From Acetomicrobium hydrogeniformans ATCC BAA-1850 (GTDB lineage Bacteria > Synergistota > Synergistia > Synergistales > Acetomicrobiaceae), in the NCBI RefSeq assembly GCF_000160455.2, contig NZ_ACJX03000001.1:1-64000 (forward strand): a stretch of DNA of 64,000 nucleotides, in the 5' to 3' direction. Positions 725-60,908 of this stretch are shown one piece after another (within the stretch, counting starts at the first letter, position 1; the number at the start of each line of letters is the position of its first letter). A model generated the notes under the pieces. The model saw nothing but the letters and a program-made list of their open reading frames with translations, was not told where the DNA came from and did no database searches. Made by a program: the position numbers and the translations under genes.

Positions 725-1243
725 TTGGAGGCTAGCCATAAACCCATTATTGAAGTCGGAATGACGTTTTCGAGAAACTACGGCATACCCGTAATCCCAA
801 GCAGTGCGATCAAGGGCTCCCTGGCACATTATCTTAAAAATAACGGCTTATTGGGCGAGCATTTTAAAGACCTTTTTGGCGAAGACACAAAAGAAAGCGA
901 AGATTCCGAAAACGTGCGAGGATGCCTGATATTCCTGGAGGCCATACCAAAAAGCGACTTAAAGTTCGGCGTTGACATAGTAAACAACCACTTTAAGCCA
1001 TATTACATGAACTCCGACTACCCTCCGAACGATTGGTACAACCCCGTCCCCGTTACGTACATAACGATCTCGGAAGGAACATTCAGATTTACGCTATTAA
1101 AAGACAATACGCAAAATACGCTTCCCAACGAAATTTTTGCCGATGTATCAAAACACCTAAAGCAGATGCTCAGCGAATCAGGCATTGGCGCTAAGACCAA
1201 TTACGGTTACGGCAGGTTCAAAAGTTCCGGGGTCGGATCTTGA
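725..1243 (+). pseudogene. cmr6: N-terminally truncated Cmr6 (type III-B CRISPR RAMP protein)
   Basis: Encodes the C-terminal two thirds of Cmr6, a RAMP-fold backbone subunit of the type III-B Cmr effector complex. Seen: a glycine-rich segment near residues 10-32 (GIPVIPSSAIKG then SLAHYL), the FLEA block, VDIVNNHF with a following YY, DWYNPVPV, and the terminal RAMP motif GIGAKTNYGYGRF. Cmr6 normally has an N-terminal domain of roughly 80-100 further residues. Here only a TTG at 725 opens the frame and no ribosome site is evident, so the fragment is probably dead. The last residues (GVGS) and the TGA stop at 1241-1243 lie inside a dispersed REP-like repeat. No other cmr gene, Cas10 or repeat array is in the window. 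Confidence 0.8.
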
Positions 1244-1255
1244 ATCTTGAATTTT
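1229..1255 (+). repeat. REP-like repeat, family 1
   Basis: GGGGTCGGATCTTGAATC followed by TTGAATTTT. It overlaps the 3' end of the cmr6 fragment and supplies its stop. This is one of three copies carrying the TCTTGA variant. Confidence 0.85.
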
Positions 1256-1424
1256 AATTTAACAGGTTAACATAAAAAGGATTTTAGGTTTCACAAATGC
1301 CACCGAGATCAGCGCCTGTTGAGGGCGGGCTCAATGGTATTTGTATGTTTATCAAATATACGATGCGTACAATAGGGGTTAATCAATAACAGTAGGGTTT
1401 AATATTTTAAATTAATCATTCTAG

Positions 1425-1566
1425 GATTTGGCTCTAAGGACAACTTCGGCTGCGGCATAAAGTTTAGATTTGTCGGTGACGGAGCAGGTCAACTTTTCGT
1501 CAGAAAATGACAAGCCGAATTTGCGGCGCAATAGTCTTATAAGCACATCTTGCTTGCCCTTTATTC
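1425..1566 (-). pseudogene. Rpn nuclease 3' remnant
   Basis: The sequence matches, with many substitutions and small indels, the 3' end of the intact Rpn-family gene at 13825-14817 (for example the shared GTCGGTGACGGAGC and TTTTCGTCAGAA blocks). No open frame remains. The flank at about 1300-1425 also resembles 45040-45130, so these two remnants share a wider ancestral segment. Confidence 0.65.
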
Positions 1567-1590
1567 GTCATTCAAGATCCGTCCCTAGAA

Positions 1591-2007
1591 CTAGAAATGC
1601 CAATATTGTAAAAGAGTGGAATAAAATTCTTCAATGTCTTTTAGATTATTTCCGAGTATGGATTTTAAGATATTTAAGTCGAGCGCTTGGTAATTATAGA
1701 CCGCTATATTTCGAAACCCTGTCATTTTGAGCATTCTTGAGGCAAGCTCTGCGCCTATTACTCCCCTTTCCTTTAAGATGACGAAGTTATCTCTGACGCT
1801 TTCGGGAAGGCCTAAATACTCCGATGCCACAGCGTGGGCCGCCAGGTCTATGCAGGCTTGAATTGCACGCTGCAGGTTAAGGACGAATATATCCTGCTTA
1901 TCAATATCATCAAGGCTTTCGGGATCAAGCCCCGTAACGTCACGGATTCTGTCAAGACACCTTTGTATAGTAGCAACCTTCGCCAAAACTATGTCCTTGT
2001 CAGGCAT
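1591..2007 (-). CDS. hepT: HepT-family HEPN protein lacking the catalytic histidine
   Basis: 138-residue all-alpha HEPN (DUF86) protein, the toxin partner of the overlapping MntA-type nucleotidyltransferase. Active HepT proteins are RNases with an R-x4-H-x-Y motif. Here the motif region reads GFRNIAVYNY: Arg99, Asn100 and Tyr106 are present, but residue 104 is Tyr, from a TAT codon where CAT would give His. The remaining HEPN helices (AIQACIDLAAH near 48-58, VIGAELASRM near 83-92) are intact and the length is normal. The ATG at 2007 has AGGAGGCGG just upstream inside mntA, and the genes overlap by 8 bp. The protein may be catalytically dead or use another residue. Confidence 0.85.
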   Translation of the reverse strand: MPDKDIVLAKVATIQRCLDRIRDVTGLDPESLDDIDKQDIFVLNLQRAIQACIDLAAHAVASEYLGLPESVRDNFVILKERGVIGAELASRMLKMTGFRNIAVYNYQALDLNILKSILGNNLKDIEEFYSTLLQYWHF

Positions 2008-2404
2008 AAAGCCGCCTCCTTAGGATGTTTTCTTCAATTTCCCTGCGGCAATACTTTAAGTCGTCATACTCATTTACCGTAGAAACAAAAAACTGCTCGT
2101 AAGCTCCTTTTTCAGCATGCAATAAGATGCCCGTTTTTAACGCCTGCATCTTCATCACCGGACCGACGCTATCAAGGACTACAAGGTCTACGTCTACTCC
2201 AACTAACTCAGTGAGCTGTTCTTTCAAGTCTAAGACTTGCTTGACATTAAAGCGCCTTCCAAAAAGCACGGCAATATCCACATCGCTATCTGGCCTAGCT
2301 GTCCCCATAGCGTAAGAGCCAATCAGAAAGGCCAGTTTTATGTCTTGCATGGCAAAAAAGTCGCGTAGTTTCGCTTCAATTTCCTTTTTGTTTTCTTTTT
2401 TCAT
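2000..2404 (-). CDS. mntA: MntA-type nucleotidyltransferase antitoxin
   Basis: 134-residue minimal nucleotidyltransferase. Seen: the GS-x(10)-DxD motif GSYAMGTARPDSDVDIAV (Gly29-Ser30, Asp41, Asp43) and a third acidic strand (VDVDLVVL). In the studied MntA/HepT pairs, MntA modifies a HepT tyrosine with AMP and so silences the RNase. The start at 2404 is preferred over an upstream ATG at 2440 because a GGAAGGCGG ribosome site lies just before it and nothing suitable precedes 2440. It is cotranscribed with, and overlaps, the hepT gene that follows. Confidence 0.88.
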   Translation of the reverse strand: MKKENKKEIEAKLRDFFAMQDIKLAFLIGSYAMGTARPDSDVDIAVLFGRRFNVKQVLDLKEQLTELVGVDVDLVVLDSVGPVMKMQALKTGILLHAEKGAYEQFFVSTVNEYDDLKYCRREIEENILRRRLYA

Positions 2405-2538
2405 AATGACCGCCTTCCTTTTTCGACACGAAAAGGACATTATAAATTAAAGTCTTGCTCGTGTTTGCAAAAATATTATAACAGCTCAAGCAGCTTTAAA
2501 ACCTCGTAAATGCCTTGGGGGCTAGCTTAAAGCGATTG

Positions 2539-2707
2539 TTAAAAGCTGCTCATATATCTAAAAACGAGCCTATCCCCCTCCGGCCTGTTTTCCGCATCGT
2601 CTTCGAAATAGTAATTCACAATGTAGGTGCTCGACCTGTCTCCATACATGATACCGGGGCCAATGCCGAAGACTTTCTCACGCGAATCTGGTACGCCTAC
2701 TCCATCA
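2539..2707 (-). pseudogene. C-terminal remnant of an outer-membrane beta-barrel protein
   Basis: The minus frame ending at TAA 2541-2539 reads VFGIGPGIMYGD, then YIVNYYFEDDAENRPEGDR, then LVFRYMSSF. The alternating pattern, the ENRPEGD turn and the terminal Phe resemble the C-terminus of Phenol_MetA_deg/SphA-like outer-membrane proteins. The upstream side is cut exactly where a family 1 repeat begins (2708). Family assignment is from memory of the motif only. Confidence 0.4.
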
Positions 2708-2731
2708 ATTCAAGATTAAAGATCCGACCCC
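2708..2731 (-). repeat. REP-like repeat, family 1
   Basis: Plus strand reads ATTCAAGATTAAAGATCC then GACCCC. It abuts and truncates the beta-barrel remnant. Confidence 0.85.
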
Positions 2732-2815
2732 AGAACCCGTACTATTATCAATTTGAGGTACTCACTACTCACTGGACCACTGGGTGGCGAAAATAAGGTG
2801 GTCGGTCCGGTGGTT

Positions 2816-2995: not shown

Positions 2996-3019
2996 CTTTC
3001 TTCTCTCTCCTGTAATTAG

Positions 3020-4822: not shown

Positions 4823-4850
4823 GGGGTCAAGTCTTTAGTTTTGAATTTTA
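4823..4850 (+). repeat. REP-like repeat, family 1
   Basis: GGGGTCAAGTCTTTAGTT then TTGAATTTTA, a diverged copy between divergent genes. Confidence 0.75.
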
Positions 4851-6189: not shown

Positions 6190-6216
6190 AGGGTCAGGTC
6201 GTTAGTTTTGAATTTC
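6190..6216 (+). repeat. REP-like repeat, family 1
   Basis: Diverged copy (GGGTCAGGTCGTTAGTTTTG then AATTT) directly downstream of the B3/B4 remnant. Confidence 0.7.
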
Positions 6217-7631: not shown

Positions 7632-7748
7632 GTGAAACGGCGAAAACAAGGCCTTGAGTTTGCAAATCAAAACAGGATTTTGTTTAAAACATACTGCCCA
7701 AGCACCCTCAAGGCTTCCCCTTTGAAACAAAATTAAACTGCTAAATTA

Positions 7749-7774
7749 AAATTCAAGATTAAAGACGTGACCCC
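7749..7774 (-). repeat. REP-like repeat, family 1
   Basis: Plus strand AAATTCAAGATTAAAGACGT then GACCCC. It supplies residues GSRL and the TAA stop of cadA. Confidence 0.85.
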
Positions 7775-9621
7775 AATACCCTTATTGCGTTAAAGACAGC
7801 TATCAGTGTGACGCCCACGTCTGCAAAGACTGCTGCCCACATGGTGGCTATCCCTAAGGCGCCAAGGGCTAAGACGGCACCTTTGACGCCCAGGGCGATG
7901 GCGATGTTTTGCCTGGCTATGCCAAGCGTTCGCTTGGCTATTTTAATGGCGACTGGGACTTTTGACGGTTCGTCCGTCATTATGACCACGTCGGCTGCCT
8001 CGATGGCGGCGTCCGACCCCAGTCCTCCCATGGCGATGCCCACATCCGCCCGCGCCAGCACGGGAGCGTCATTTATGCCGTCTCCGACGAAGATGAGCTT
8101 TCCCTTCGCGGATTTGCCCGCCATGAGATCCTCCACCTTTTGCACCTTATCCGCGGGAAGCAGCCCGCCGTAGGCCTCGTCGATGCCAAGATGAGAGGCC
8201 ACGCTTTCAGCTACGGACTTTGCATCACCCGTGAGCATTACGACCTTTTTTACCTTTTGGGCCTTCAGCTCGCTGACGGCTTTGGTTGCGTCTTCCTTGA
8301 TAGCGTCTCCTATTACGATATAGCCTTTGTATTCGCCGTCGACCGCGACGTGCACCACCGTTGCAGCGTCGACAAGGTCTTCGGCTGATATGGATATGTC
8401 AAGCATCTGCATCATCTTGGCGTTTCCCGCCGCAACGAAGCGGCCGTCGACGGTGGCGGTGACGCCCTGCCCAGGGATTTCTTTGACGTTTGAAATGAGT
8501 GCGGCATCGACTTCTTTGCCATATGCCCGCCTGATCGAAAGGGAAATGGGATGATTTGAAAAGCTTTCGGCGCAGGCGGCGAACTTTAAAATTTCTTCAT
8601 TATTATACATGTCTTGTGAGACGACTTCTTGTACCTTGAAAGTCCCTTTGGTGAGCGTGCCGGTTTTGTCGAAGACGGCAACTTCCGCATCGGCCAGCGC
8701 TTCCAAGTAGTTGCTTCCCTTCACGAGGATGCCCTTTCTTGCCGCAGCGCCAAGCCCGCCAAAGAAGCTCAAGGGTATGGAGATCACCAGCGCGCAAGGG
8801 CATGAAATTACGAGAAAGACCAGTGCCCTATAGATCCAGTCGCCAAATGCCGCGCCTCCAAGCGCTAGAGGCGGGACGACGGCTATGAACGCCGCTCCGC
8901 CCACCACGGCAGGCGTATAAAAGCGGGCAAACTTGGTGATGAAGTTCTCATGTTTTGACTTTTTGGCGGAGGCGTTTTCGACTAAATCCAGGATTTTTGA
9001 TGCCGTCGATTCGCTGAATACCTTTTTGACCCGTGCGACGAGCAGGCCGTTTAAATTGACGGACCCGCTTAGCAGTTCGTCGCCTTCGCGTACAGCTTTG
9101 GGCATCGATTCACCGGTCAGAGGCGAGGTATCAAGGCTTGAGCTACCCTCCATGACCACGCAGTCTAAGGGCACCTTCTCTCCCGGTTTTATGACAATGA
9201 CGTCGCCAATGTTTACTTCGTCGGGATCGACGCGATCTATAACGTTGCCTATTTTAATGTTTGCATAATCGGGGCGTATGTTCATGAGCTCGGCGATGGA
9301 TCTTCGCGACTTGTCCACTGCTCTGTCTTGAAATAGCATGCCGATCTTGTAAAAAAGCATCACGGCGACAGCTTCGCTGTACTGTCCGATGCAGAAGGCC
9401 CCGATCGTGGCAACGCTCATCAGGAAGTTTTCGTCGAAGATCTGCCTGCGCGAGATGTTTCTTGCCGCCCGTAAAATCACGTCGCCGCCGGCTACCGCGT
9501 AGGCAGCTAAAAAAAGCAACAGCCGGGCTGTGTTTTCAGCTTCCAGTAATAGGGCAAAAAGGAAAAGCCCCAACCCTATGACTATCTCAGCGATCCTCTT
9601 TTGGTGCGGCGAAATAGGCAT
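7759..9621 (-). CDS. cadA: P1B-type heavy-metal-exporting ATPase (Cd/Zn/Pb)
   Basis: 620-residue inner-membrane P-type ATPase. Seen in order: N-terminal membrane helices, actuator TGES (169-172), CPC metal site Cys274-Pro-Cys276, phosphorylation motif DKTGT at Asp318, HP dipeptide at 357-358, GDGINDAP hinge (513-520), and final helices. CPC plus a CadC-like regulator argues for Zn(II)/Cd(II)/Pb(II) efflux rather than copper. No N-terminal metal-binding domain is fused; it is encoded by the separate gene just upstream, 2 bp away. The last residues GSRL and the TAA come from a family 1 repeat. Expression is expected to be derepressed by metal. Confidence 0.93.
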   Translation of the reverse strand: MPISPHQKRIAEIVIGLGLFLFALLLEAENTARLLLFLAAYAVAGGDVILRAARNISRRQIFDENFLMSVATIGAFCIGQYSEAVAVMLFYKIGMLFQDRAVDKSRRSIAELMNIRPDYANIKIGNVIDRVDPDEVNIGDVIVIKPGEKVPLDCVVMEGSSSLDTSPLTGESMPKAVREGDELLSGSVNLNGLLVARVKKVFSESTASKILDLVENASAKKSKHENFITKFARFYTPAVVGGAAFIAVVPPLALGGAAFGDWIYRALVFLVISCPCALVISIPLSFFGGLGAAARKGILVKGSNYLEALADAEVAVFDKTGTLTKGTFKVQEVVSQDMYNNEEILKFAACAESFSNHPISLSIRRAYGKEVDAALISNVKEIPGQGVTATVDGRFVAAGNAKMMQMLDISISAEDLVDAATVVHVAVDGEYKGYIVIGDAIKEDATKAVSELKAQKVKKVVMLTGDAKSVAESVASHLGIDEAYGGLLPADKVQKVEDLMAGKSAKGKLIFVGDGINDAPVLARADVGIAMGGLGSDAAIEAADVVIMTDEPSKVPVAIKIAKRTLGIARQNIAIALGVKGAVLALGALGIATMWAAVFADVGVTLIAVFNAIRVLGSRL

Positions 9622-9623: not shown

Positions 9624-9845
9624 TTAGGCCTTCTTTACCACCACGTCCGGCTCGTATCTTGCAACAATCCCCTGTGCTGCTTTGACGATTTCGTCAAATC
9701 TTGAATCGTCACCTTCGATGACCATCTTAGTGGTCATGAAATTTACGGATGCAAAGTTGACGCCCTCCAAAGCTTTGATCTCCCTTTCTATCTTTTCCGC
9801 GCAGTTTACGCAGTTTAGTCCCTCGAGCTTAAATGCCCTTTTCAT
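9624..9845 (-). CDS. Heavy-metal-associated (HMA) domain protein
   Basis: 73-residue ferredoxin-fold metal chaperone with the GLNCVNC motif (Cys12 and Cys15) followed by the usual beta-alpha-beta-beta-alpha-beta pattern. In most CadA/ZntA pumps this domain is fused to the pump; here it is free and first in the operon, two bases before cadA, so it probably hands metal to CadA or buffers it. A GGAGGCG ribosome site precedes ATG 9845. Confidence 0.9.
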   Translation of the reverse strand: MKRAFKLEGLNCVNCAEKIEREIKALEGVNFASVNFMTTKMVIEGDDSRFDEIVKAAQGIVARYEPDVVVKKA

Positions 9846-10501: not shown

Positions 10502-10557
10502 CGAGGTCGGATCTTTAATCTTGAATTTTAAGGTCCCGGGGTCGGATATGACCCCGG
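10502..10557. terminator. Head-to-head repeat pair forming a bidirectional hairpin
   Basis: A family 1 copy (GGTCGGATCTTTAATC then TTGAATTTTA, 10506-10530) is followed by a perfect stem CCGGGGTC-GGATAT-GACCCCGG (10536-10557) and a T-rich tail. It separates the convergent cadC and B3/B4 genes and could terminate both. Confidence 0.65.
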
Positions 10558-12009: not shown

Positions 12010-12096
12010 CTAAAATTCAAGATTAATGATCCGACCCCTAAATCCCTCCAACTTTTTCGCTACATCTTTTCCGGAAAGGTTAGGCAGTTTGCTCAT
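12010..12096 (-). pseudogene. hicA: hicA truncated by a REP-like repeat
   Basis: ATG 12096 overlaps the end of hicB. The first 19 codons read MSKLPNLSGKDVAKKLEGF, the standard HicA N-terminus (a double-stranded RNA-binding-fold mRNA interferase). The frame then runs directly into a family 1 repeat (RGRIINLEF) and ends at TAG 12012-12010, just past the repeat. The catalytic His region and most of the fold are missing, so the toxin is dead. Confidence 0.85.
12013..12038 (-). repeat. REP-like repeat, family 1
   Basis: Plus strand AAAATTCAAGATTAATGATC then CGACCCC. It replaces the 3' three quarters of hicA. Confidence 0.85.
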
Positions 12097-12328
12097 CAGA
12101 AAGAGATATCTCTACGACATCGACAATAACATCGCTTTGCGGGATTTCATCGCCAAATTGCTCGGAAACTTCTATCCACCCTTTTATGGCTTCCTTCACA
12201 TTCGCAAGCGCTTCTTCGTAGGTATCACCTTCGCTAATACACCCAGGAAGCGAAGGGACATACACAGTATAACCGCCCTCTTCCGCAGGCTCGAAGATAA
12301 CTTTATAAGCTCGAGTTTTACTCATCAT
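12080..12328 (-). CDS. hicB: HicB-family antitoxin
   Basis: 82-residue partial RNase H-fold antitoxin: YKVIFEPAEEGGYTVYVPSL then PGCISEGDTYEEALANVKEA, the hallmark HicB sequence. ATG 12328 (MMSKTRAYK minus the first Met codon pair choice) is preferred over TTG 12346 because GAGGTG lies 7 bp upstream. Its partner hicA is cut short by a repeat, so HicB survives without an active toxin. A REPIN-like unit lies immediately upstream. Confidence 0.87.
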   Translation of the reverse strand: MMSKTRAYKVIFEPAEEGGYTVYVPSLPGCISEGDTYEEALANVKEAIKGWIEVSEQFGDEIPQSDVIVDVVEISLSDEQTA

Positions 12329-12358: not shown

Positions 12359-12472
12359 GGGGTCACATCTTTAGTTTTGAATCTTGGCATTTTCAGGAAC
12401 CCCCGTTATACCTTTACCGTTACACCTTTAAAGGTATTCGGCCGGAAAATTCAAGATTAAAGATCCGATCCC
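12359..12472. repeat. REPIN-like unit, copy A
   Basis: Two family 1 repeats in inverted orientation (GGGGTCACATCTTTAG at left, AAGATTAAAGATCCGATCCC at right) around a spacer with the palindrome ACCTTTAAAGGT. 114 bp, one of three copies in the window. Confidence 0.85.
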
Positions 12473-13824: not shown

Positions 13825-14817
13825 TTACTGCCCAAGCAGCTTTAAAACTTCCTCCTTCGATTTGGCGTCAAATATGGCTTCGGCCGCGGCGTCGAGTTTA
13901 GCTTCGTCGGTGACGGAGCGGATTATCTTTTCGTCAGAAGACGAAAGGCCAAATTTTCTGCGCAACAGCTTTATAAGCAGATCTTGTTTTCCTTTGATTG
14001 TACCTATGATTGTACCTTTAATCTCGCCTCTTTTTTCGCCCTCTATTTTGCCTCTTTCTTCCCCTTGCTTTATCAGCTTTTCTGCAAAAGATGGCATAAG
14101 CTCTTCACCTCCAAGTTCTTTTACTATCCGTTGCATGGTGTCTTGGTCTACGTCGAGAGTGTAGAATAAATAAAGGATCAGTATTATCCTTTCTTCTTCG
14201 GACAGTTTTATTATAACAGCTATCCTTATGATTCCTTCTATATCATGTAAGGCTACAAGCTTCATCAAAAGGAGACTTGCCATCAAAAAGGGTGTGGACT
14301 TTGCTTTTTGTTCTATCTCGTCGTTAGGAATTTGGGTTAGGTCTACTAGTACATAATTGAATTCAGGAATGTAAGGTTTTATGGATTCACCAATATTTTG
14401 AAACTGTCCTTGAAAATGAGTCGTAACGTTCCAGCTTGAAGAGCCGTGATAGATGACTACGGGAATTATAGGTGTAAGTGGTACGTTTTTCTTTCTCTGT
14501 TCATCCCACGTTACGGTCATATAGCTTAGTATTTGAAGTAAAACTCCGGGATCAGGGTATGACTTGTGTTCAAATACGAAGTAAAGCTGCCCTTTTGTGT
14601 CTGATATATAGCATTCTACAGCTATGTCCATGTAGTACTTGTTATAGCCTTTAACTTTCTCGGTGGGGATTAGTTTCATTTCCTTTAAATCTATCTGGCT
14701 TGAAATGTCTTTTGGTAGGAACTCCTTTATAAATTGTCTTACGTTTGCTTCATCTGACATTACCCTTTTAAAAAGCCTGTCGTGGGGGTCTTTAGGAGTT
14801 AGGTCGTCTTTTAGCAA
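13825..14817 (-). CDS. Rpn-family recombination-promoting nuclease (PD-(D/E)XK, DUF4351-like tail)
   Basis: 330-residue member of the Rpn/transposase_31 family. Seen: PHDRLFKRVMSD start motif, PD-(D/E)XK residues Asp64 (MDIAVEC) and Glu83-x-Lys85 (FEHKS), PVVIYHG strand, and a C-terminal low-complexity stretch of repeated K/E-G hexads before a short helical tail ending LLGQ. Known: Escherichia coli Rpn proteins are DNA nucleases that stimulate RecA-independent recombination. TTG 14817 is the start; GGAGGT is 6 bp upstream. At least four decayed pieces of the same family lie elsewhere in the window. Confidence 0.88.
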   Translation of the reverse strand: MLKDDLTPKDPHDRLFKRVMSDEANVRQFIKEFLPKDISSQIDLKEMKLIPTEKVKGYNKYYMDIAVECYISDTKGQLYFVFEHKSYPDPGVLLQILSYMTVTWDEQRKKNVPLTPIIPVVIYHGSSSWNVTTHFQGQFQNIGESIKPYIPEFNYVLVDLTQIPNDEIEQKAKSTPFLMASLLLMKLVALHDIEGIIRIAVIIKLSEEERIILILYLFYTLDVDQDTMQRIVKELGGEELMPSFAEKLIKQGEERGKIEGEKRGEIKGTIIGTIKGKQDLLIKLLRRKFGLSSSDEKIIRSVTDEAKLDAAAEAIFDAKSKEEVLKLLGQ

Positions 14818-15040: not shown

Positions 15041-15071
15041 AATTCAAGATTAAAGATCCGACCCCGGGGTC
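15041..15071 (-). repeat. REP-like repeat with palindromic GACCCCGGGGTC tip
   Basis: AAATTCAAGATTAAAGATCC followed by a perfect 12-bp palindrome at 15060-15071, just downstream of the UPF0175 gene stop. Confidence 0.85.
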
Positions 15072-15520: not shown

Positions 15521-17440
15521 TTAGGTGCCGATGATTTGGTTGAGGTACTTTTTAAGGCTTTTGATACTTAAATAAACATGATAACCTGCTTGGCTTAAGA
15601 TATCTGCCTGCTTCTTATCTTCTTCTAACAAAAGTGCAACCGGCTCGCTGTACCCCTTTTGCACCCCATCTGGCCAGGCAAGGTCTGCTATGGTAAGCAC
15701 CTCACCATGGGCATCAGCAATCTCATAATATATCTCCGGGTCAGGCAAATGATTTTCTTTAATCCAGTCTATCAACTCCTGAGTATCCCCGCTTATTAGC
15801 TGAGTCCTTTCGGAAACAGCCAAAGCTTGCGAATAATCAATCATCGCCGGTATAGCGGCAGAACCAGTTAAAAGCTCATCCAAAAAGCGGTTGGCCGCTT
15901 CGGCAAGTAATTTTCGCCTTTCAGCCAAAAAGGCAGTATAATTTTCCATTTTCCAAAGCTGGGGGTCTGCAGGCACCCACTGTGAAGCTAAAGCTCCGGG
16001 GAATCTTTTTTCTACCTCTGGCAAATATATTTCAGGTTTGGTATTACTTATTTTAAGATTTGTGTCCTGCGTCAAGAAACAGTAATTGGCTATAGCGTTT
16101 ACTTCTGCTTTTGAGTAACCGTAATCGTAAAGTAAAGATTTAGGGAAAATATGATGAATCTGCAGCGCATTAAGTTTACCCAGTAAATTGGCCGAAAGAG
16201 GCACACCGCTGCCCCAATCCAGAGCATTATAAACTCTGGTAAGTAAATAAACCATAGGATAAAACCTTGCGCCTAAACTCCAACCGGCAAAATTCTCCGG
16301 ACGAACAGTAAGATCACCGCGAGAAAGCCGCAACTGTTCAATTAAGCGATCAAGGGCTCCGTCAATTGGCTCTAAAACTTTTAAATCTTTGCTTAGCGTA
16401 CTTTCGGTCGCACCGGCAAAACGCCCCCATAAAAAACTATGTACATACCAATACAAAAGACGGTCGCGTTCGCGAGCATCACTTATTTTGCCGCCGTGCA
16501 GGGACAAATACCTGGCCATTACTGGAAAAGCATAGCGCCCGCCTAAAACACGGTCGTGGTCTAAACCAAGCCTGCCAGAAATCATATTCAATAAATAGTT
16601 ACTGTTATTTCTGGCCTCAGCCAAACCTTTTTGAAAATCAGCAGCACTTACATTTTCCAGAGCATCAAAGAAAGCTTCGCCGGTAAGTATAGCATTGGCA
16701 TTACGCAGCAGCCACTCTAAGCTAAAATTAAAACCCGCTTTATTCCATTGCGCTAAATAATCGCGCATCGTTTTTCTGGCTTCGGGCCAAAGAGTACAAA
16801 TTTTTGCCAGGGCCAGGTCGCCTTTGGATAATTTAGTCCCGCCGCTATTTACCATATTAAAAATATCAACCACTATCTCAATGGTTTTATCTTCACCGGT
16901 AACCTCTTCCACATGCAAATCGATTTCTTTGATATTTTCAACAGCATTCAGTCGCCCAATGTAAGTCTTCATTTTGTCGTCTAATAAGTCTGAAGCACCA
17001 CTTATGCGTTCCAAAAAACTAATAATACCTTTTTGCATAATTTCTGTAACATTTACCCATAAAGGATTACCCTGCATCTTTATAGGCATATAAAACTCAA
17101 AAATTTCTTCTTCCAGATTAAAATATAAATCTAAAAAGACTTGAGCATTCCCTTCGAAAAATGCCGGTGGTTTACCCCGAATAATTCCATACAAAGTAGT
17201 GACTCGCTGCTGCCCATCCAGCAAAAGCTTAACAATACCAGGCGATAAACCATCGCTGCCCCTATAGGCGGCAGTATCAGCTGGGGTAAGCCAGACCAAT
17301 AAACTGCCCACCGGATACCGGCGATAAAGAGACTGCATAAATTTGCGCACCTGATTGCGGTTCCAAACGTAACCCCTTTGAAATTCCGGCAGTGCAATAC
17401 TGCCCAAATCGATATTATCTAGAATAGTACTGATTTTCAT
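15521..17440 (-). CDS. DUF262/HNH (GmrSD-like) restriction-type protein
   Basis: 639-residue protein. N-terminal DUF262 (ParB-like nucleotide-dependent) domain: LPEFQRGYVW (17-26) and LLLDGQQRVTTL (72-83), the conserved DGQQR motif. A C-terminal DUF1524-type HNH nuclease follows: LQIHHIFPKS (426-435) and ANYCFLTQDTNL (451-462). The last 100 residues form an extra alpha/beta tail. Known relatives include GmrSD type IV restriction enzymes and BrxU, which use nucleotide to cut modified phage DNA. A stand-alone anti-phage role is inferred. A possible remnant of a relative is at 4352-4462. Confidence 0.85.
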   Translation of the reverse strand: MKISTILDNIDLGSIALPEFQRGYVWNRNQVRKFMQSLYRRYPVGSLLVWLTPADTAAYRGSDGLSPGIVKLLLDGQQRVTTLYGIIRGKPPAFFEGNAQVFLDLYFNLEEEIFEFYMPIKMQGNPLWVNVTEIMQKGIISFLERISGASDLLDDKMKTYIGRLNAVENIKEIDLHVEEVTGEDKTIEIVVDIFNMVNSGGTKLSKGDLALAKICTLWPEARKTMRDYLAQWNKAGFNFSLEWLLRNANAILTGEAFFDALENVSAADFQKGLAEARNNSNYLLNMISGRLGLDHDRVLGGRYAFPVMARYLSLHGGKISDARERDRLLYWYVHSFLWGRFAGATESTLSKDLKVLEPIDGALDRLIEQLRLSRGDLTVRPENFAGWSLGARFYPMVYLLTRVYNALDWGSGVPLSANLLGKLNALQIHHIFPKSLLYDYGYSKAEVNAIANYCFLTQDTNLKISNTKPEIYLPEVEKRFPGALASQWVPADPQLWKMENYTAFLAERRKLLAEAANRFLDELLTGSAAIPAMIDYSQALAVSERTQLISGDTQELIDWIKENHLPDPEIYYEIADAHGEVLTIADLAWPDGVQKGYSEPVALLLEEDKKQADILSQAGYHVYLSIKSLKKYLNQIIGT

Positions 17441-17814: not shown

Positions 17815-17929
17815 GGGGTCACATGTAACTGGGGTCACATCTTTAGTTTTGAATCTTGGCATTTTCGGAAACCTCCGTTACACCTTTAAAGGTATTCAGC
17901 CGGAAAATTCAAGATTAAAGACGTGACCC
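17815..17929. repeat. REPIN-like unit, copy B
   Basis: An extra GGGGTCACAT start (17815) precedes a full unit (17831-17929) with the same left and right repeats and ACCTTTAAAGGT centre as copies A and C. A further partial repeat at 17938-17953 forms the end of the next gene. Confidence 0.85.
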
Positions 17930-17937
17930 TGTGGCTA

Positions 17938-19821
17938 TTAAAGATCTGAACCTGTGGCCCACAAAGAGTCATAGGCCATATTGATGTACATATCATAATA
18001 GGTCATGTAACTTGCTTCTGATGCTTTCTGCAAAGCACCCAGGTCAACCGAAAAGCCTTTCGGGAAAAGCGCAGCCCATCCGTAGGGCGATGCATCCGAC
18101 CAGGTCAATTTCTTGACCGTTTTTAGTTTATCAAGGAGGTCAGCAAATGTATCGTCGTAATAGGACGATAAGGTAAGTATCTTTGAAATAGTTAGCGGGA
18201 CCTTGTTTTCCAGGTCTTTGAAAAGGATATCGCCCGCTCCGAAAAGCTCGCCAGACAGCGTTAAGATTGCCATATATAGGGCAAAATAACGCACAAGCCG
18301 GTCGAAGGCATCGTCGCGCCATTGGGCCAATGACGCCCTGATCGGCTCATCATCGCCAAAGCAAGGGTATATGTAAATGCCATCTTCAATACCTTTTTTT
18401 CTTAAGTCAAAGGGGACGGATGATGAAGAAATCTTTAACTTAGAAGCTAAAACGATGCACTTTTCGCGCATTTCTTGAAGCTCAAAGGCTTCTTTAAGCG
18501 AAGGTATGCGCTGTATGTCTCGGAGGTTGTTGGCACAACTCATCTCGGAAGCGGGAAATTTTCCGATGTATACCCTATCTCCTGATTCGCACTCTCTCGA
18601 CTGACGCTCTTTGATCCACATATTCCATGAGTTAAGCATTATTCCATCTTTCATCTCGAAATCTTCATTGCTGAGCAAATGCCCTGTGCTGTCGAAGTAA
18701 TCTGCTAAGCATACATATACTCGGCCATCGATGATGCGCTCCTGTAGCCCAAGCGAATTTATGCGCTCTTCTGCTTCAATAAAGATCGCATACTGCTCAT
18801 CTTTATTTAAAATTCCAAAATCTTCGACTTTGAGAATGACACCTTGCACAGCCTCTTCGTCTTGCGTCTTTTTATCCAATACGATTGGCCAGGCAACAGG
18901 ATTTTCTTCCTCGGACCGAATCATCTCGTAACCCATCTTCAAGATGGTTTGATACCACTCAAGCACAGCAAGGGCCTTTTTGTCTATCCAATTCCCCTCG
19001 ATCAAAGGTATGGATGACATGAAAAGATTGGGCGGATCTTTCGGACAAAGCACCCATCCTGCTTCGACGGCGCCGCTGTTTACTAGGGAGCGCACTTCCT
19101 CTAGCAAGGATTCTAGAGCAGTTTCAAAGTCCTCGTCTCGAACATCAAGCAGGCCGTAATTGAAGTCTCTGCCATGCAAAAAATCGTCTCCGTCTTCGGG
19201 AGATTCAAACTTTGAGCATATCGCCGCGATCTTACTTTCCTCTCCTGAATTTACGAGAATTTGACGCATTAAATCCCAACCCCAAGGGATCGCCCTGTTT
19301 CCCTGCAACAAAAAATATTCCCTTACCATGGCGGGCAGTTCTGATTCAAGCATCTCATCCCATGTCCTAACAGTCCTTTCGTTTAAACTCCAAAGTAAGT
19401 CTGCCATTTCTTCCGAAAGCGGATAAGCTTCACGAGCAAAGGTCGTATCGACAGCCTGGGCAAAGCTTGAAACCTGCAGGGACATCAAAAGTCTTTTTAG
19501 TCGTTCGGTAAGCAAGTCAACTTCTAACTGCATTTCCCTCTGTCTGTTTCGCAGGTCATCGTTTATGCAATAAAAGAGAGAGGCCAAAAAGTCGATTTGT
19601 GGTTTTAACACGTCAAACTTTTCCTTCACATACTTAAGTCCTTTGTCGCTATACTCCTCTGCTAAGGCTTCGGTAAAGCGATTATATAAGCTTTTTACTG
19701 AATCACGACGAAATTCGGACCCATTTGCGGCCAGAACTTCCTTTACCCATTCCTTTACAGTTTTTTTAACCATGGGAGAAATATTTTTCAGATCAATTGA
19801 TGATGATTTTAATGTACTCAT
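17938..19821 (-). CDS. Unrecognised 627-residue protein
   Basis: Large, acidic, apparently soluble protein with no signal peptide, no transmembrane segment and no motif that I recognise. Residues 60-115 are strongly helical with a probable coiled coil; the middle contains several Trp-rich segments (VLEWYQTILKMGYEMI, MLNSWNMWIKERQS); a late segment (YFALYMAILTLSGELFGAGD) is hydrophobic but short. The final residues GSDL and the TAA stop derive from a degraded family 1 repeat. It stands alone between TA and remnant sequences. Phage-defence or another accessory role is possible, but nothing in the sequence proves it. Confidence 0.75.
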   Translation of the reverse strand: MSTLKSSSIDLKNISPMVKKTVKEWVKEVLAANGSEFRRDSVKSLYNRFTEALAEEYSDKGLKYVKEKFDVLKPQIDFLASLFYCINDDLRNRQREMQLEVDLLTERLKRLLMSLQVSSFAQAVDTTFAREAYPLSEEMADLLWSLNERTVRTWDEMLESELPAMVREYFLLQGNRAIPWGWDLMRQILVNSGEESKIAAICSKFESPEDGDDFLHGRDFNYGLLDVRDEDFETALESLLEEVRSLVNSGAVEAGWVLCPKDPPNLFMSSIPLIEGNWIDKKALAVLEWYQTILKMGYEMIRSEEENPVAWPIVLDKKTQDEEAVQGVILKVEDFGILNKDEQYAIFIEAEERINSLGLQERIIDGRVYVCLADYFDSTGHLLSNEDFEMKDGIMLNSWNMWIKERQSRECESGDRVYIGKFPASEMSCANNLRDIQRIPSLKEAFELQEMREKCIVLASKLKISSSSVPFDLRKKGIEDGIYIYPCFGDDEPIRASLAQWRDDAFDRLVRYFALYMAILTLSGELFGAGDILFKDLENKVPLTISKILTLSSYYDDTFADLLDKLKTVKKLTWSDASPYGWAALFPKGFSVDLGALQKASEASYMTYYDMYINMAYDSLWATGSDL

Positions 19822-20696: not shown

Positions 20697-20796
20697 GGGG
20701 TCACATCTTTAGTGTTGAATTTTGGCATTCTCGGACACCTCCATTAACCTTTAAAGGTATTCAACCGGAAAATTCATGATTAATGACGTGAGACCC
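20697..20796. repeat. REPIN-like unit, copy C
   Basis: GGGGTCACATCTTTAGTG at left, ATGATTAATGACGTGAGACC at right, ACCTTTAAAGGT centre. 100 bp, upstream of the phd-vapC promoter. Confidence 0.82.
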
Positions 20797-21099: not shown

Positions 21100-21339
21100 A
21101 CCCTAAAAACCAGCGTGAACTGATCAAACGTTTGAAAACATTAGGTTTTACCGGTCCATATTCCGGTGGACGTCATTCGTTTAAGGCGCGATACGTTGAA
21201 GTTAAAAGCACCAAGTCCTCATGTAGGGGATATCGGTATTCTAATGCTTAAAGAAATTTTAAGACAGGCGGGCATTTCTGAAGATGAGTGGAATAATACC
21301 AGAATAAGATCAACCTGCCAGATTAAATTTAAAGATTAA
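21096..21339 (+). pseudogene. hicA: hicA with a frameshift
   Basis: First frame from ATG 21096: MNPKNQRELIKRLKTLGF then TGPYSGGRHSFKAR, with the catalytic His of GGRHSF. After about 21190 the HicA sequence continues in another frame (DTLKLKAPSPHVGDIG then MLKEILRQAGISEDEW). One base appears to be missing at the switch. The second frame ends in TAA 21337-21339, where a family 1 repeat begins, so the 3' end has also been rewritten. Confidence 0.85.
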
Positions 21340-21351
21340 AGATCCGATCCC
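21322..21351 (-). repeat. REP-like repeat, family 1
   Basis: Plus strand AAATTTAAAGATTAAAGATC then CGATCCC, at the 3' end of the hicA pseudogene. Confidence 0.8.
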
Positions 21352-21377
21352 AGTGCCGACCGAACATTTTACACCAA

Positions 21378-21403
21378 AAATTCAAGATTAAAGACCCGAC
21401 CCC
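21378..21403 (-). repeat. REP-like repeat, family 1
   Basis: Plus strand AAATTCAAGATTAAAGACCC then GACCCC, 27 bp after the previous copy. Confidence 0.85.
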
Positions 21404-21711: not shown

Positions 21712-21817
21712 CGGAGAGATCCCCTAGGCCGGCTACTTACACATAACCCGAACAAAAATCGACCAAACCAGTCATCACCGGTTAAGCTTGCATTTATGCC
21801 AAGTTCGTTTCGTCTAT

Positions 21818-22100
21818 TTACTGCCCAAGCAACTTTAAAACTTCGTCTTTGGATTTGGCGTCAAGGATGACTTCCGCTGCGACGTCGAGTTTAACTTCGT
21901 CGGTGACGGAGCGGATTATCTTTTCGTCAGAAGACGACAGGCCGAATTTTCGGCGCAACAGTTTTATAAGCACATCTTGTTTGCCCTTGATTTTGCCTTC
22001 TATTTTGCATCTTTCTTCCCCTTGCTGTATCAGCTTTTCAGCAAAAGATGGCATGATTTCTTCACCTCAAAGTTTTTTACTATCCGCTGCATGATGGTTT
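21818..22100 (-). pseudogene. 3' fragment of an Rpn nuclease gene
   Basis: Near-identical to the last quarter of the intact Rpn gene at 13825-14817, including the K/E-G hexads and LLGQ end, and sharing about 55 bp of downstream flank (GCCAAGTTCGTTTCGTCTAT). It lacks the nuclease domain. A family 1 repeat begins at its broken side. Confidence 0.88.
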
Positions 22101-22110
22101 GAGTATGTCA

Positions 22111-22136
22111 AAATTCAAGATTAAAGACCCGACCCC
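22111..22136 (-). repeat. REP-like repeat, family 1
   Basis: Plus strand AAATTCAAGATTAAAGACCC then GACCCC, four bases downstream of the ugd stop codon. Confidence 0.85.
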
Positions 22137-24659: not shown

Positions 24660-24686
24660 AAAATTCAAGATTCAAGATGCGACCCC
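24660..24686 (-). repeat. REP-like repeat, family 1
   Basis: Plus strand AAAATTCAAGATTCAAGATG then CGACCCC, the TTCAAGAT variant. It supplies GVAS and the TGA stop of the GT4 gene. Confidence 0.85.
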
Positions 24687-25883: not shown

Positions 25884-25971
25884 TAACAGAGAACTCCTTT
25901 GATTTCGAAACATCTCATATACTAGAATACAAATCATAAAATTAATAAGATGATTTAATATAAATTAATCT

Positions 25972-39456: not shown

Positions 39457-39482
39457 AGGGTCACATCTTTAATCTTAAATTT
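39457..39482 (+). repeat. REP-like repeat, family 1
   Basis: AGGGTCACATCTTTAATC then TTAAATTT, between the regulator gene and wbpA. Confidence 0.75.
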
Positions 39483-44735: not shown

Positions 44736-44795
44736 GGGGTCGGATCTTTAATCTTGAAATATCTTTAATCTTGAAATATCTTTAATCTTGAAATA
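44736..44795 (+). repeat. REP-like repeat with tandem tail
   Basis: GGGGTCGGATCTTTAATC then TTGAAAT, followed by two further tandem copies of ATCTTTAATCTTGAAAT (three in all). Confidence 0.85.
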
Positions 44796-45128: not shown

Positions 45129-45212
45129 TATTTTAAATACCTCGTCTTTGGAGATAGCGTCAAGCACGGCTTCGGCTCCTACGTCAAGCTTGGATTCGTC
45201 GGCGACGGAGCT
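45129..45212 (-). pseudogene. Rpn nuclease 3' remnant
   Basis: Short decayed match to the 3' end of the Rpn gene (CTCGTCTTTGGA, GTCGGCGACGGAGC). The upstream flank resembles that of the remnant at 1425-1566. A family 1 repeat begins 10 bp further. Confidence 0.6.
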
Positions 45213-45221: not shown

Positions 45222-45276
45222 TAATTCAAGATTAAAGATCCGACCCTCGAGGTTTTCGCGACCCTCGAGGTTTTCG
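45222..45276 (-). repeat. REP-like repeat and 18-bp tandem duplication
   Basis: AATTCAAGATTAAAGATCCG then ACCC; its end runs into two perfect copies of CGACCCTCGAGGTTTTCG (45241-45258, 45259-45276). Confidence 0.8.
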
Positions 45277-46104: not shown

Positions 46105-46417
46105 AATTTTGTAAATACACCAAAAAACGGGTCCATCCTAATTCAGCGCTCTGTCAAATTGTTTGCCGTGAAGGCGCGCTACTTCCTTGTTACGCTATGT
46201 GCGTTACGCAGTATGGGTAATGATTATATGCAAATGAGGATTATGCAACTATTGAAAAATTTAAGAAGTGTAAAATATGATGAATATGGCCAAAATTCTC
46301 TATACCGATAAGAAATTGATTTGCTACGTTATTGGTAAATTACAAAACATCGGTATTATATTTTGACTTTCAGTATATTCAAGAACCCTTTTGTTGCTTT
46401 TCAAGGGATTCAACGAA
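46105..46417. other. Intergenic stretch, nothing recognised
   Basis: About 310 bp of A-T rich sequence; short plus frames without similarity. Confidence 0.4.
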
Positions 46418-46443
46418 AAATTCAAGATTAAAGATCCGACCCT
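46418..46443 (-). repeat. REP-like repeat, family 1
   Basis: AAATTCAAGATTAAAGATCC then GACCCT. It supplies GSDL and TAA to the gene at 46428. Confidence 0.85.
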
Positions 46444-47093
46444 CGAGGGTTCCTTCCCTTGATTTTCCTTGCCGGTACCCCGACATATGTACCAGGCTCC
46501 ATTATGTCCCTAGTTACTACCGCGCCTGCTCCAATGATGCAATTGCCTGTAATACTTATATTGTTTATTACTGCGCTTCCGATACCTATCCATGTACCCT
46601 TTCCAACGCTTACAGTCCCGGCCAGATGCGCACCTGGTGAGATATGCACGTAATCGCCTATCATATTGTCGTGATCTATGGTTGCTCCGGTATTGATTAT
46701 GCAACCTTTACCTATCTTGGTACAGCAGTTAATTACAGCCCCTGCCATGATGACCGTACCAATCCCGACCTCCACCAGCTTGCCCAAAACAGCACTAGGA
46801 TGAATCAACACAGGGACGCTTGCTTCTAATGACATCAATTCCTCTAATACCTTTTCTCTCGTAGCGTTATTGCCAATTGCCACGAATATATCGTAGTCTT
46901 TTATATACTTAAAGGCATTTTCTGATCTATCTATTACATCAATATCTAACGAAGACTTGATGGCTTCATCCTGATCCATAAAAGCAATATATTTCCATTT
47001 ATTCATCTTTAAGGCAACGTCGGCAACGACCTTGCCATGACCGCTTGCGCCAATAATCAAAAGCCTTTTTTTTGTATTATAATTTATTTTCAT
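46428..47093 (-). CDS. pglD: PglD/NeuD-type sugar O/N-acyltransferase
   Basis: 221-residue protein: N-terminal Rossmann-like nucleotide-sugar domain ([20 protein letters not shown]) and a C-terminal left-handed beta-helix ([40 protein letters not shown] with the catalytic His, [10 protein letters not shown]). PglD acetylates the 4-amino group of a UDP-amino-sugar to give UDP-diNAc-bacillosamine. Overlaps pglC by 17 bp. The terminal GSDL and TAA derive from a family 1 repeat. Confidence 0.88.
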
Positions 47094-50964: not shown

Positions 50965-50992
50965 TAAAATTCAAGATTCAAGATCTGACCCC
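50965..50992 (-). repeat. REP-like repeat, family 1
   Basis: AAAATTCAAGATTCAAGATC then TGACCCC, the TTCAAGAT variant. It supplies GVRS and TGA to the gene at 50978. Confidence 0.85.
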
Positions 50993-52348
50993 AGGTAGTT
51001 TGATTCCCTTATCTTCATCTCTTACGCCAGCCGATTTATCCTTACAGAAGAGGATCTTTAGTGTGTTAATCATTATGCGGATATCTAAAAGCAAGGAGTA
51101 GTTTCTAATGTAAAGGAGGTCATACTTTGCTTTATTATCCGGTTTAGTTGTGTACCTGCCAAGGATCTGGGCAAGGCCGGTTATTCCTGCCTTCACGAGG
51201 ACTCTGTACTTGAACTCCTCAATCTCCTCGTTGAATTGCTCGACAAAATGAGGCCTTTCGGGCCTGGGTCCCACTATGCTCATTTCTCCCTTCAATACGT
51301 TTATAAGCTGTGGAAGCTCGTCAAGCCTTGTGGCCCTCAAAAACCTGCCAACTTTTAATATCCTAGGATCGTTCTCCATGGCAAGCACGGGGCCGGTGTA
51401 TTTTTCCGCATCAACTACCATGGTCCGGAACTTATAAATCTCAAATATCCTGTTGTTTTCAGTGATCCTTTTCTGCCTGTAGAATACGGGGCCTCTGTCT
51501 TCAAGCTTTATCATCAAGGCAATGATTAAAAAAAGCGGAGAGGTTAAAATCAATCCTATGGCAGACAAAACCACGTCCATAACCCTTTTCATCACTCTTT
51601 GCTCAAATGAAAGACCCAGCGGTTCTACCTTGAGAAGCAAAACGTCGCCATGGTTTTTCGTTTTCGAGTTCATCATTGCTATCTCTAAAAGTCCAGGCAC
51701 TATATATATTACCTTATCCTTCACGGAACAATATTTAATCAAGTCGAGCTTGTCGTTGTAAGGGATATTGGAATCTACATAAACTTTATCAACATAATCT
51801 ATTAAATAATATGTGTTATTATTCACTGAGCCGAGGGCATATTCTATGTGATTTTCTCCAGTGTCTCTAGTGAAACTATCAGCAAGTAAGTTAGAGTTTT
51901 CACCGGGGGCAATAATCAATATTTTTTGTTGTTTTTTAGTGCGTTTTATAATGCTCAGGATTAAAATCTTTGTAATTAAAATGAACACACATTGTGTTAT
52001 AAAACCGATTATGAAAATGCTCCTGGGAAAGCTGAAGCCTCTGCTTAAAAACATGATTGCCAAGGTAAGAGTATCTATCAAAAATAATGAAGCCACGATT
52101 ATGATTACGTTCTCATACAATGATTTTTTAGCAGTTGATGTAATGTTAAAAATGTAAAATATGACTGCCGACGTCAGCACTATGTAAGGAATGTTTTGGT
52201 AAAAGGGGATTAAGTTAATTAAAGGCGGATGGCTTCCGAACCTAATAAAATAAGATAAATATAACCCTCCTACTGCTATGAGAACGTAGAGGATGAATTC
52301 AAATATCTTGAGAAAACTCCCATCACTTTTCGGCCTCGAAATACGCAT
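50978..52348 (-). CDS. Polyprenyl glycosylphosphotransferase, WbaP/EpsE-like
   Basis: 456-residue membrane enzyme. Five N-terminal transmembrane helices (about 12-140), a Rossmann-like cytosolic domain (KILIIAPGENSNLLADSF), then a C-terminal PF02397 phosphoglycosyl transferase domain with [29 protein letters not shown]. Transfers hexose-1-phosphate to undecaprenyl phosphate to initiate a glycan, making two such initiators in the window (with PglC). The last four residues GVRS and TGA come from a family 1 repeat. Confidence 0.9.
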   Translation of the reverse strand: MRISRPKSDGSFLKIFEFILYVLIAVGGLYLSYFIRFGSHPPLINLIPFYQNIPYIVLTSAVIFYIFNITSTAKKSLYENVIIIVASLFLIDTLTLAIMFLSRGFSFPRSIFIIGFITQCVFILITKILILSIIKRTKKQQKILIIAPGENSNLLADSFTRDTGENHIEYALGSVNNNTYYLIDYVDKVYVDSNIPYNDKLDLIKYCSVKDKVIYIVPGLLEIAMMNSKTKNHGDVLLLKVEPLGLSFEQRVMKRVMDVVLSAIGLILTSPLFLIIALMIKLEDRGPVFYRQKRITENNRIFEIYKFRTMVVDAEKYTGPVLAMENDPRILKVGRFLRATRLDELPQLINVLKGEMSIVGPRPERPHFVEQFNEEIEEFKYRVLVKAGITGLAQILGRYTTKPDNKAKYDLLYIRNYSLLLDIRIMINTLKILFCKDKSAGVRDEDKGIKLPGVRS

Positions 52349-58638: not shown

Positions 58639-58673
58639 GTCTTTAAAGAAAGAAGCTTAAGGGAGACATCAAA

Positions 58674-59496: not shown

Positions 59497-59576
59497 AGCC
59501 CCCCTTTAAAGTAGCCCCCACAGGGCTAGGATTCAAATATTGTCTGTTCGGATATATCTGCCTGGAGTGTGTCCTT

Positions 59577-59603
59577 GGGGTCAGGTCTTTAATCTTGAAA
59601 ATA
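59577..59603 (+). repeat. REP-like repeat, right flank of the RAYT region
   Basis: GGGGTCAGGTCTTTAATC then TTGAAAAT, downstream of the transposase gene. Confidence 0.85.
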
Positions 59604-59883
59604 CAATTTAACGTACTTATATCTATCGCAGCTATGTGTTGGCATCATGGTGATAATTACAAAAAGAGTAATTGTAACCAGCGTGGTCATTTTTGATGTA
59701 TGGACTGAAATTTTTCAAACATACAACATATCTCGTAGGTTTACCTTGGGAAATACATTTGCCCCAGGGGTGGGCATACAATATCGTTAACGAAAACTAT
59801 ATCAAATATGACCGCTGCATATTCAAGTTTTATGTGCTTAAAATTAGTATTTGTTAAATCAAAGGAATAACAAACAATGAAGA
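59604..59883. other. Intergenic sequence between two repeats
   Basis: About 280 bp without a recognisable gene. It lies between inverted family 1 repeats and could be a decayed insert. Confidence 0.4.
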
Positions 59884-59909
59884 AAATCAAAAATAAAGAC
59901 CTGACCCCC
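59884..59909 (-). repeat. REP-like repeat, RAYT 3' flank
   Basis: CAAAAATAAAGACCTGACCC then CC, 17 bp downstream of the transposase stop. Confidence 0.8.
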
Positions 59910-59925
59910 ACGGGCAGGCTCAAGT

Positions 59926-60783
59926 TTAGGAATTGCTGTCCTCTTGTTTTAAGATTACACTAACGGTGGAATAATGAAGGCCTAAAAACCTTGCAACTTC
60001 GGTTTGCGTGTAACCGTGTACGCGGACTGCCTCATAAATTTTGCCGTTTCGCTCACGCTTATCATCAATCTTAATATTGGCAAACAGCTCCTTCAAAGTT
60101 GGACGTGCTGCCTTTCTTTGATAGATCGGATACTCGTTATCCTGTTGGTAGTTGTCTAACAAAGGCTTCACAGCATCAAGAAAATTTTCGCTGCCAAGCA
60201 CTACCCCGCCTTTGAGTTCTTCCCACGGGCCTGTTTTGCCATCATTTGCCACGAAAGCCCGATATAGCTGTCTTGCCCGCTCGCTGTTTTTGTCAAATTG
60301 ATCCAGCAACCAGCTAGTATACAAAAAGGGTGGAGCGCTTTCAATCCCCGCTGTCGCCCTGTAGCTACTCCATGGCCACTCCTCTGGTCGCTTTACGAAT
60401 CCCGCCCTCACGGGATTCAGCACAATATACCGAGTCAACTCAAGCAAATGACTTTCACGCTCGACCAGTATAGACTTATACCTGCCCTGCAGTACATGAC
60501 CAACTCGATCGTGATTGCGATTAAAATATATCGTATACACACAATTGAGGTAATGCATCCCCTTTGAAATGTTAGCGTCCGGTGTTTCAATTAAAAGGTG
60601 GTAATGGTTATCCATTAAACAGTAAGCATGACATAGCCAATTGTATCGCTCGATGGTCTTGCCAAGCATACCCAAAAACATCGTGCGATCCTTGGCGTCG
60701 AGGAAAACGTCGTTTCTCGCGTTTCCGCGACAGGTAATGTGATATATTGCCCCCTCGAATTGAACCCTCAATGGTCGTGCCAT
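59926..60783 (-). mobile_element. REP-associated tyrosine transposase (RAYT, Y1 HUH)
   Basis: 285-residue Y1 transposase of the IS200/TnpA-REP branch. Seen: MARPLRVQFEGAIYHITCRG start, HUH motif His60-Tyr-His62 in MDNHYHLLIET, RNDVFLDAKDR, catalytic Tyr119 in LTRYIVLNPVRAG, WPWSSYRA, and a C-terminal helix-turn-helix (YTQTEVARFLGLHYSTVSVI). RAYTs are single-copy and mobilise short palindromic REPs rather than themselves. Family 1 repeats flank the gene at 59884 and 60885 and are scattered through the window, so this is their likely mobiliser. Complete and apparently active. Confidence 0.92.
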
Positions 60784-60884
60784 GTATCAAATATACTACA
60801 TATTTTACTTTTGTACATACATGAACACTACGAAAGTTGATCATTGTGTGTTACGAATTTATTCTGGCGCTGAGTAAAGGAAGT

Positions 60885-60908
60885 ATTCAAAAATAAAGAC
60901 CTGACCCC
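60885..60908 (-). repeat. REP-like repeat, RAYT 5' flank
   Basis: TTCAAAAATAAAGACCTGAC then CCC, same orientation as the copy at 59884, giving direct repeats around the transposase gene. Confidence 0.8.

Follow-up and report, generated by a model that had tools for sequence, protein, structure and literature searches.

Contig 1 of Acetomicrobium hydrogeniformans ATCC BAA-1850 (genome G000, 2.12 Mb) has in its first 64 kb, referred to here as the window, 26 copies of a short repeat, GGGGTCNNNTCTTTAATCTTGAATTTT, counted at up to 5 substitutions in its first 24 nt. Several genes of the window end inside the repeat, which supplies their final codons and stop, and an earlier note on this DNA had read it as a dispersed, portable stop codon whose sequence variants are matched to the reading frame of the gene that is ended. 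Comparison with relatives and with described repeat families indicates that the presence of the repeat at gene ends is for the most part behavior already known from repeats of this sort and not the work of a purpose-built stop signal.

Repeat copies and the genes that end in them

The five Acetomicrobium genomes compared (G000 and its congeners G001 to G004) yielded 98 copies, which become 73 unique sites when copies with similar upstream DNA are merged. The copies of the relatives were taken from stretches around matches to a strict repeat pattern, and the looser search was run genome-wide in G000 only. Judged by information content over the unique sites, the unit is about 27 nt long with a sharp 5' edge, and its first base is G at 51 sites, A at 21, and T at 1, followed by a GGGTC-like stretch. 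The strict pattern is present in all four congeners searched and in 0 of 56 other genomes from the same order. A dispersed family was ruled out by the distribution in G000, where 25 of the 29 copies found at up to 3 mismatches lie within the first 61 kb of the window and 4 lie elsewhere. Clustering is also seen in the strict-pattern scan of two relatives, with 20 of 22 copies in about 50 kb of G004 and 14 of 20 in about 16 kb of G003.

Beyond the genus, a scan of genome contigs matched 101 stretches, and the 80 loci listed from it were examined; these hold 93 exact copies, 14 of them from Acetomicrobium (labelled by hand) and 79 from other organisms. The 24-nt core recurs nearly letter for letter in many unrelated phyla (Uhrbacteria, Dokdonella, Desulfobulbus, Aminicenantes, Acidobacteria, and others; loci L023-L102), and this recurrence suggests that the family has been spread widely by horizontal transfer.

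Table 1. Repeat copies, dimers, and the transposase in the window. aa, amino acids; ORF, open reading frame; HTH, helix-turn-helix; MITE, miniature inverted-repeat transposable element; REP, repetitive extragenic palindrome; RAYT, REP-associated tyrosine transposase; TIRYT, terminal inverted repeat (TIR)-associated tyrosine transposase; z, folding score as DNA.
Feature	Position	Strand	Remark
Repeat copy, TTGA core	1229..1255	+	ends RAMP-family (cmr6-like) ORF 725-1243, 172 aa, frame 1
Repeat copy	2708..2731	-	ends no called gene
Repeat copy, TTTAGTTTTGAAT type	4823..4846	+	
Repeat copy, decayed	6190..6213	+	
Repeat copy, TTTA	7748..7774	-	ends cadA/zntA-like P-type ATPase gene 7759-9621, 620 aa, frame 2
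Repeat copy	10503..10526	+	6 nt past arsR-type regulator gene
Repeat copy, ATTA	12012..12038	-	ends 28-codon ORF 12010-12096 (hicA by eye), frame 3
REPIN/MITE-like dimer, two inverted copies	12359..12472	+	folds as DNA, z -4.9
Repeat copy	15042..15065	-	upstream of PF04754 gene
REPIN/MITE-like dimer	17831..17930	+	folds, z -3.6
Full repeat copy	17904..17930	-	beside half copy at 17938
Degenerate half copy	17938..17953	-	ends 627-aa gene 17938-19821, frame 2
REPIN/MITE-like dimer, decayed	20697..20795	+	z -1.2, not significant
Two neighbouring copies (21328, 21380)	21328..21403	-	same orientation
Repeat copy	22110..22136	-	4 nt past stop of UDP-sugar dehydrogenase gene 22141-23463
Repeat copy, TTGA	24660..24686	-	ends GT4 gene 24672-25937, 421 aa, frame 1
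Repeat copy	39457..39480	+	
Repeat copy, then two tandem 17-nt partial units	44736..44794	+	
Repeat copy	45224..45247	-	37 nt past HicB-family gene
Repeat copy, TTTA	46417..46443	-	ends pglD-like gene 46428-47093, 221 aa, frame 2
Repeat copy, TTGA	50966..50992	-	ends WbaP-like sugar transferase gene 50978-52348, 456 aa, frame 1
Inverted GGGGTCAG copy	59577..59600	+	downstream of transposase, candidate opposite terminal repeat
Repeat copy	59885..59908	-	17 nt past transposase stop, oriented like upstream copy
RAYT/TIRYT-type Y1 transposase, 285 aa	59926..60783	-	H-Y-H motif, weak C-terminal HTH matches
GGGGTCAG copy	60885..60908	-	upstream of transposase, candidate outer end

Seven genes of the window had been listed as ended by the repeat. 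Five of them (stops at 1243, 7759, 24672, 46428, and 50978) end in full copies and in the frames claimed, while the stop at 17938 lies within a half copy, and the frame at 12010 is an ORF of only 28 codons. This short ORF has no Pfam match and lies directly behind a HicB-like gene (12080-12328, PF15919); by eye, it looks like a cut-short HicA. In G003 a HicB-like gene of the same family also ends in the repeat, and its last residues appear, again by eye, to have been replaced by repeat-encoded ones. The larger repeat-ended genes keep an intact protein body as judged by alignment: the cadA-like ATPase can be aligned with the solved zinc transporter 4umv to residue 617, and the sugar transferase domain of the WbaP-like protein ends at 434-438. 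The core of the repeat is found mainly in two forms, TTTA and TTGA, and the three TTGA copies of the window are, as had been observed, the three frame-1 gene ends. The TTTA core was likewise confirmed to lack a frame-1 stop, the first one in a long copy coming at +39. A fourth ATCTTGAATC, at 9698, lies outside any repeat copy.

The pglD-like gene permits a comparison with a relative. The G004 orthologue shares 93% identity with it across a full length of 212 residues and stops at a TGA; codon 213 of the window gene is GGA instead, and nine more codons follow before a stop within the repeat. Homologues end at positions 210-214 of the window protein, which suggests that the shorter form is older, and because homologue lengths point this way, it looks like the window gene has lost its native stop and fallen back on the repeat. 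G004 also has repeat units past the pglD stop, a partial one and then a full TTGA copy.

Gene edges, reading frames, and core variants

A gene stop lies inside 18 of the 98 copies, whereas placing them at random in non-coding DNA would give 3%, and the two edges of the repeat behave differently. In 42 of 98 copies and 28 of 73 unique sites, a gene on the same strand stops between -30 and +48 nt of the GGGG edge (null 8.8%), whereas a gene on the opposite strand stops between -24 and +30 nt of the other edge in just 4 copies, or 3 unique sites (null 8.7%); the two intervals differ in length, and each has its own null. This polarity is significant in Acetomicrobium (Fisher 3e-7) and is seen again in 16 genomes hand-chosen from the 80 loci, at 33 versus 10 of 129 copies (p 2e-4; up to 1 mismatch, a set that overlaps the 79 exact copies).

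It is possible that such placement comes from target choice alone, with a transposase that prefers pyrimidine-rich single-stranded DNA just past stops and with no selection on frame. The sharp 5' edge favors this explanation, being preceded by C or T at -2 in 65 of the 73 unique sites and by T at -1 in 40, as does the recurrence of edge polarity in two data sets. Target choice leaves unexplained, however, the scarcity of gene ends in the frame that stops latest, and we give it somewhat less than an even chance. When gene ends are ranked by the order in which the core stops each frame, 17 use the earliest stop, 7 the second, and 0 the last (p 1e-4), a total made up of 10, 3, and 0 at 13 Acetomicrobium sites and 7, 4, and 0 at 11 copies from the other genomes. 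Two cases were left out of the test, the frame-3 ORF of 28 codons at 12010 and the frame-2 gene end in the half copy at 17938; their inclusion gives 18, 8, and 0. There are 33 copies located 0-60 nt past the stop of a gene; the next in-frame stop of that gene falls within the repeat's first 45 nt in 17, earlier in 8, and later in 8, which is a raw count without a control. Of the proposal that copies are kept or adjusted to end translation, the first half gains some support, in the sense of a selection filter, from the excess of gene-ending copies over chance and from the frame bias. Core variants matched to the frame are not supported in the form first claimed.

The repeat may instead be kept because its RNA acts on the upstream gene through ribosome stalling or transcript stability. 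In line with such a role, 22 of the 98 copies start at a distance of 4-20 nt behind the stop of a gene on the same strand, and PMC12306157 refers to work on it in Escherichia coli, where it has been proposed for REPs within 15 nt of a stop. Against it, a single 40-nt unit folded as DNA has no stable structure (-0.1 kcal/mol, z 0.93), and a search of the window against Rfam at gathering scores gave no match. We regard an RNA role as unlikely.

A further claim had been that the repeat stops translation in all three reading frames. Within 45 nt this is true of 36 of the 98 copies, compared with 32% of mononucleotide shuffles of one long copy and 13-15% of non-coding 45-mers from three of the loci, and a three-frame stop was rejected as a special property of the repeat.

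The core variants bear on the idea of a frame-matched stop. The 98 copies comprise 79 with TTTA, 13 with TTGA, and 6 with other cores. Among the 13 TTGA copies are 6 that end frame-1 genes (at four sites), 2 that end frame-2 genes, and 5 that end no called gene; one of these five sits at a contig edge, and one of the four with readable flanks (L136_2861) has an uncalled 139-codon ORF in frame 3. TTGA is enriched at gene ends within the genus, at 8 of 13 copies versus 10 of 85 other copies (Fisher 2e-4) and 7 of 11 versus 6 of 62 unique sites. Outside the genus it is the usual core, present in 72 of the 79 exact copies and in 107 of the 129 copies from the 16 genomes. A gene stop falls within the core in 11 of those 107 copies (7 times in frame 1, 4 times in frame 2) and in 0 of the 22 TTTA copies; four more copies of this set, in which the stop overlaps just the first 1-2 bases of the repeat, were not counted as core-ending. 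Judged by frequency and not by a tree, TTGA is likely the older of the two cores, with TTTA the Acetomicrobium form.

A true portable translation stop, with core variants selected or edited to fit the frame of the ended gene, would account for the enrichment of TTGA at gene ends in the genus and for the fact that all six frame-1 ends are TTGA. It would also suit the TTGA copy behind pglD in G004, which has a TGA in the pglD frame although pglD itself stops 39 nt earlier. However, TTGA at frame-1 ends is required almost by definition, as the TTTA core holds no stop in that frame, and no called gene ends at the four remaining TTGA copies whose flanks can be read. TTGA also ends frame-2 genes, both in the genus (L137_3619, a YrbL-type gene of G002, and G004isl_32440) and at 4 of the 11 core-ending copies elsewhere, where it is in any case the common form. 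The copy that ends the GT4 gene in the window and G004isl_32440 have a common downstream flank, a TTGA core, and a 343-aa next gene, yet they end different glycosyltransferases (29% identity over 156 residues), one in frame 1 and the other in frame 2. Finally, three species have cadA ending in frame 2 and a fourth has it ending in frame 3, with a TTTA core in all four. A frame-matched stop device was rejected because TTGA ends frame-2 genes and the same TTGA flank follows genes in both frames, and we consider selected or edited variants improbable. An apparent exchange between G000 and G002 of the DNA that follows the wbaP copy was left out of account, as one contig turns to N just past the repeat.

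The transposase and related repeat families

G000 has four Y1 transposases, three of which are open frames of 139-144 aa; the fourth, in the window, is longer and divergent. Its Y1 domain matches PF01797 (Y1_Tnp, E 1.8e-12), with an H-Y-H motif of the H-U-H type read by eye, and the protein passes NCBIfam NF047646 (REP_Tyr_transpos) at 86.9 bits against a cut-off of 80. The C-terminal HTH_23 match is weak (E 0.0022, residues 255-280), at 18.2 bits versus a curated cut-off of 24.6. TIRYT genes are flanked by GGGGWSAS terminal repeats (PMC3733652; PMC6006769), and the window transposase lies between inverted GGGGTCAG copies that fit this motif. By its Y1 domain and flanking repeats, and tentatively by its weak HTH match, it resembles the TIRYT/TIRtron elements described in these papers (subclass 2.1 in PMC6006769). 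Unlike a TIRtron, it has an extra copy in the same orientation just past its stop. We infer that the outer two GGGGTCAG copies are the true element ends, with the third copy lying between them.

Systematic use of the repeat as a gene terminus, with frame-matched variants, had been put forward as a property not known to have been described, but Di Nocera et al. (2013, PMC3733652) already report that the termini of GTAG REPs often provide the stop codon of flanking ORFs. Like the repeat studied here, GTAG REPs are short, often linked to a transposase, and located near gene 3' ends, and one GTAG family (GTAG-23 of T. roseum) is clustered too. In contrast to GTAG REPs, the repeat of the window has neither a GTAG or CGTC end tag at the 73 unique sites nor the single-unit hairpin of these classes, and its stops come from TAA or TGA inside the unit rather than from a TAG end. 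The same paper was the only literature match to the letters of the repeat, through the GGGGWSAS motif. Gene-end use of TIR families was not met in the parts of PMC3733652 and PMC6006769 that were consulted, nor were edge polarity and an earliest-stop bias in the corresponding parts of the REP and TIR literature (PMC3733652, PMC2817692, PMC6006769, and PMC12306157).

The window also holds three dimers of inverted copies, about 100-115 nt long, two of which fold well, and 14 arms of each kind occur over four of the five genomes. This is the arrangement of REPINs, which are inverted REP dimers. Unlike REPINs, which occur genome-wide, the copies here are concentrated in one region. At the 3' end of the UDP-sugar dehydrogenase gene there is one copy in G000, a dimer arm in G003 (G003isl 22414), and three same-orientation copies plus one inverted copy in G004 (G004isl 34990-35186). 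Three tandem occurrences of a 17-nt part of the repeat lie at 44736-44794.

The densest part of the repeat cluster, from 1 to 25000, holds toxin-antitoxin and defence-type genes. Besides the HicB-like gene and the RAMP-family ORF, these include HepT-like and nucleotidyltransferase genes (1591-2440) and a GmrSD N-terminal domain (15521-17440). A PF04754 gene (YhgA-like, 13825-14817, minus strand), which we take to be of Rpn type, has similar partial stretches near 1424, at 21743-21998, and at 45133, and the DNA behind several repeat copies is common to places that hold such stretches. An integron-like cassette array was considered as a reading of the region because the repeats lie between small toxin-antitoxin and defence-type genes.

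Origin and meaning of repeat-borne stops

Taken together, these observations are best explained by a transposon-derived repeat that lies at gene ends, where its service as a fallback stop is a by-product, not a purpose, and is filtered for short tails; we hold this to be probable. The repeat would be a short, non-autonomous part of a RAYT/TIRYT transposition system (IS200/IS605-like, Y1) in one variable chromosomal region, to which it is assigned because matching repeats surround the one such transposase. Copies sit with their GGGGTC edge at or just beyond gene 3' ends, through either target choice or selection after insertion. A gene running into the repeat would often stop there because the 27-nt unit is rich in TAA and TGA. 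Two routes may lead to this outcome: a copy could fall within the last codons or cut the gene short, or the gene's own stop could be absent so that translation continues to a downstream copy, as pglD may illustrate if the direction of change is as suggested above. Purifying selection presumably acts against longer tails, since copies that add only about 4 residues are over-represented. Most Acetomicrobium copies are TTTA, and TTGA would tend to remain where it acts as a stop. Under a bolder version, the repeat is a standing second stop that covers genes losing their own, and the older TTGA core is selectively kept in the genus only where it is that stop; this seems doubtful to us.

Several points weigh against a by-product filtered for short tails. 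If five read-through ORFs, all of the last rank, are counted as genes, the frame ranking becomes 17, 7, and 5 (p 0.014); one of these ORFs carries a SEFIR domain and is probably a genuine gene, one has a PrtN match below the cut-off, and three have no Pfam match. The proteins ended in the core in other genomes are themselves divided, with 6 of the 11 matching Pfam (four in frame 1, two in frame 2) and 5 without a match. The cadA site was scored as earliest despite the one species in which it ends in frame 3, and the gene calls come from simple callers. The single unit has no stable fold, unlike classical REPs. No transposase homologue was found in G001, G003, or G004 (89, 87, and 99% complete), and G002 has a partial one at a contig end, which leaves current movement there in doubt. 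For four copies outside the island, flank searches gave sites that are rearranged, filled, or missing, and insertion is inferred because no clean pair of empty and filled sites was found.

These gene ends show that a repeat of the REP/TIR type can replace the last codons of a gene while the body of the protein is left intact. The attractive claim of a frame-matched portable stop is corrected, and pglD provides one concrete case in which the repeat is the stop where the native stop codon of a relative is absent. Both edge polarity and the preference for the earliest stop can be determined wherever a genome has a transposase of this sort, and they would show whether such repeats are filtered by the tail that is added.

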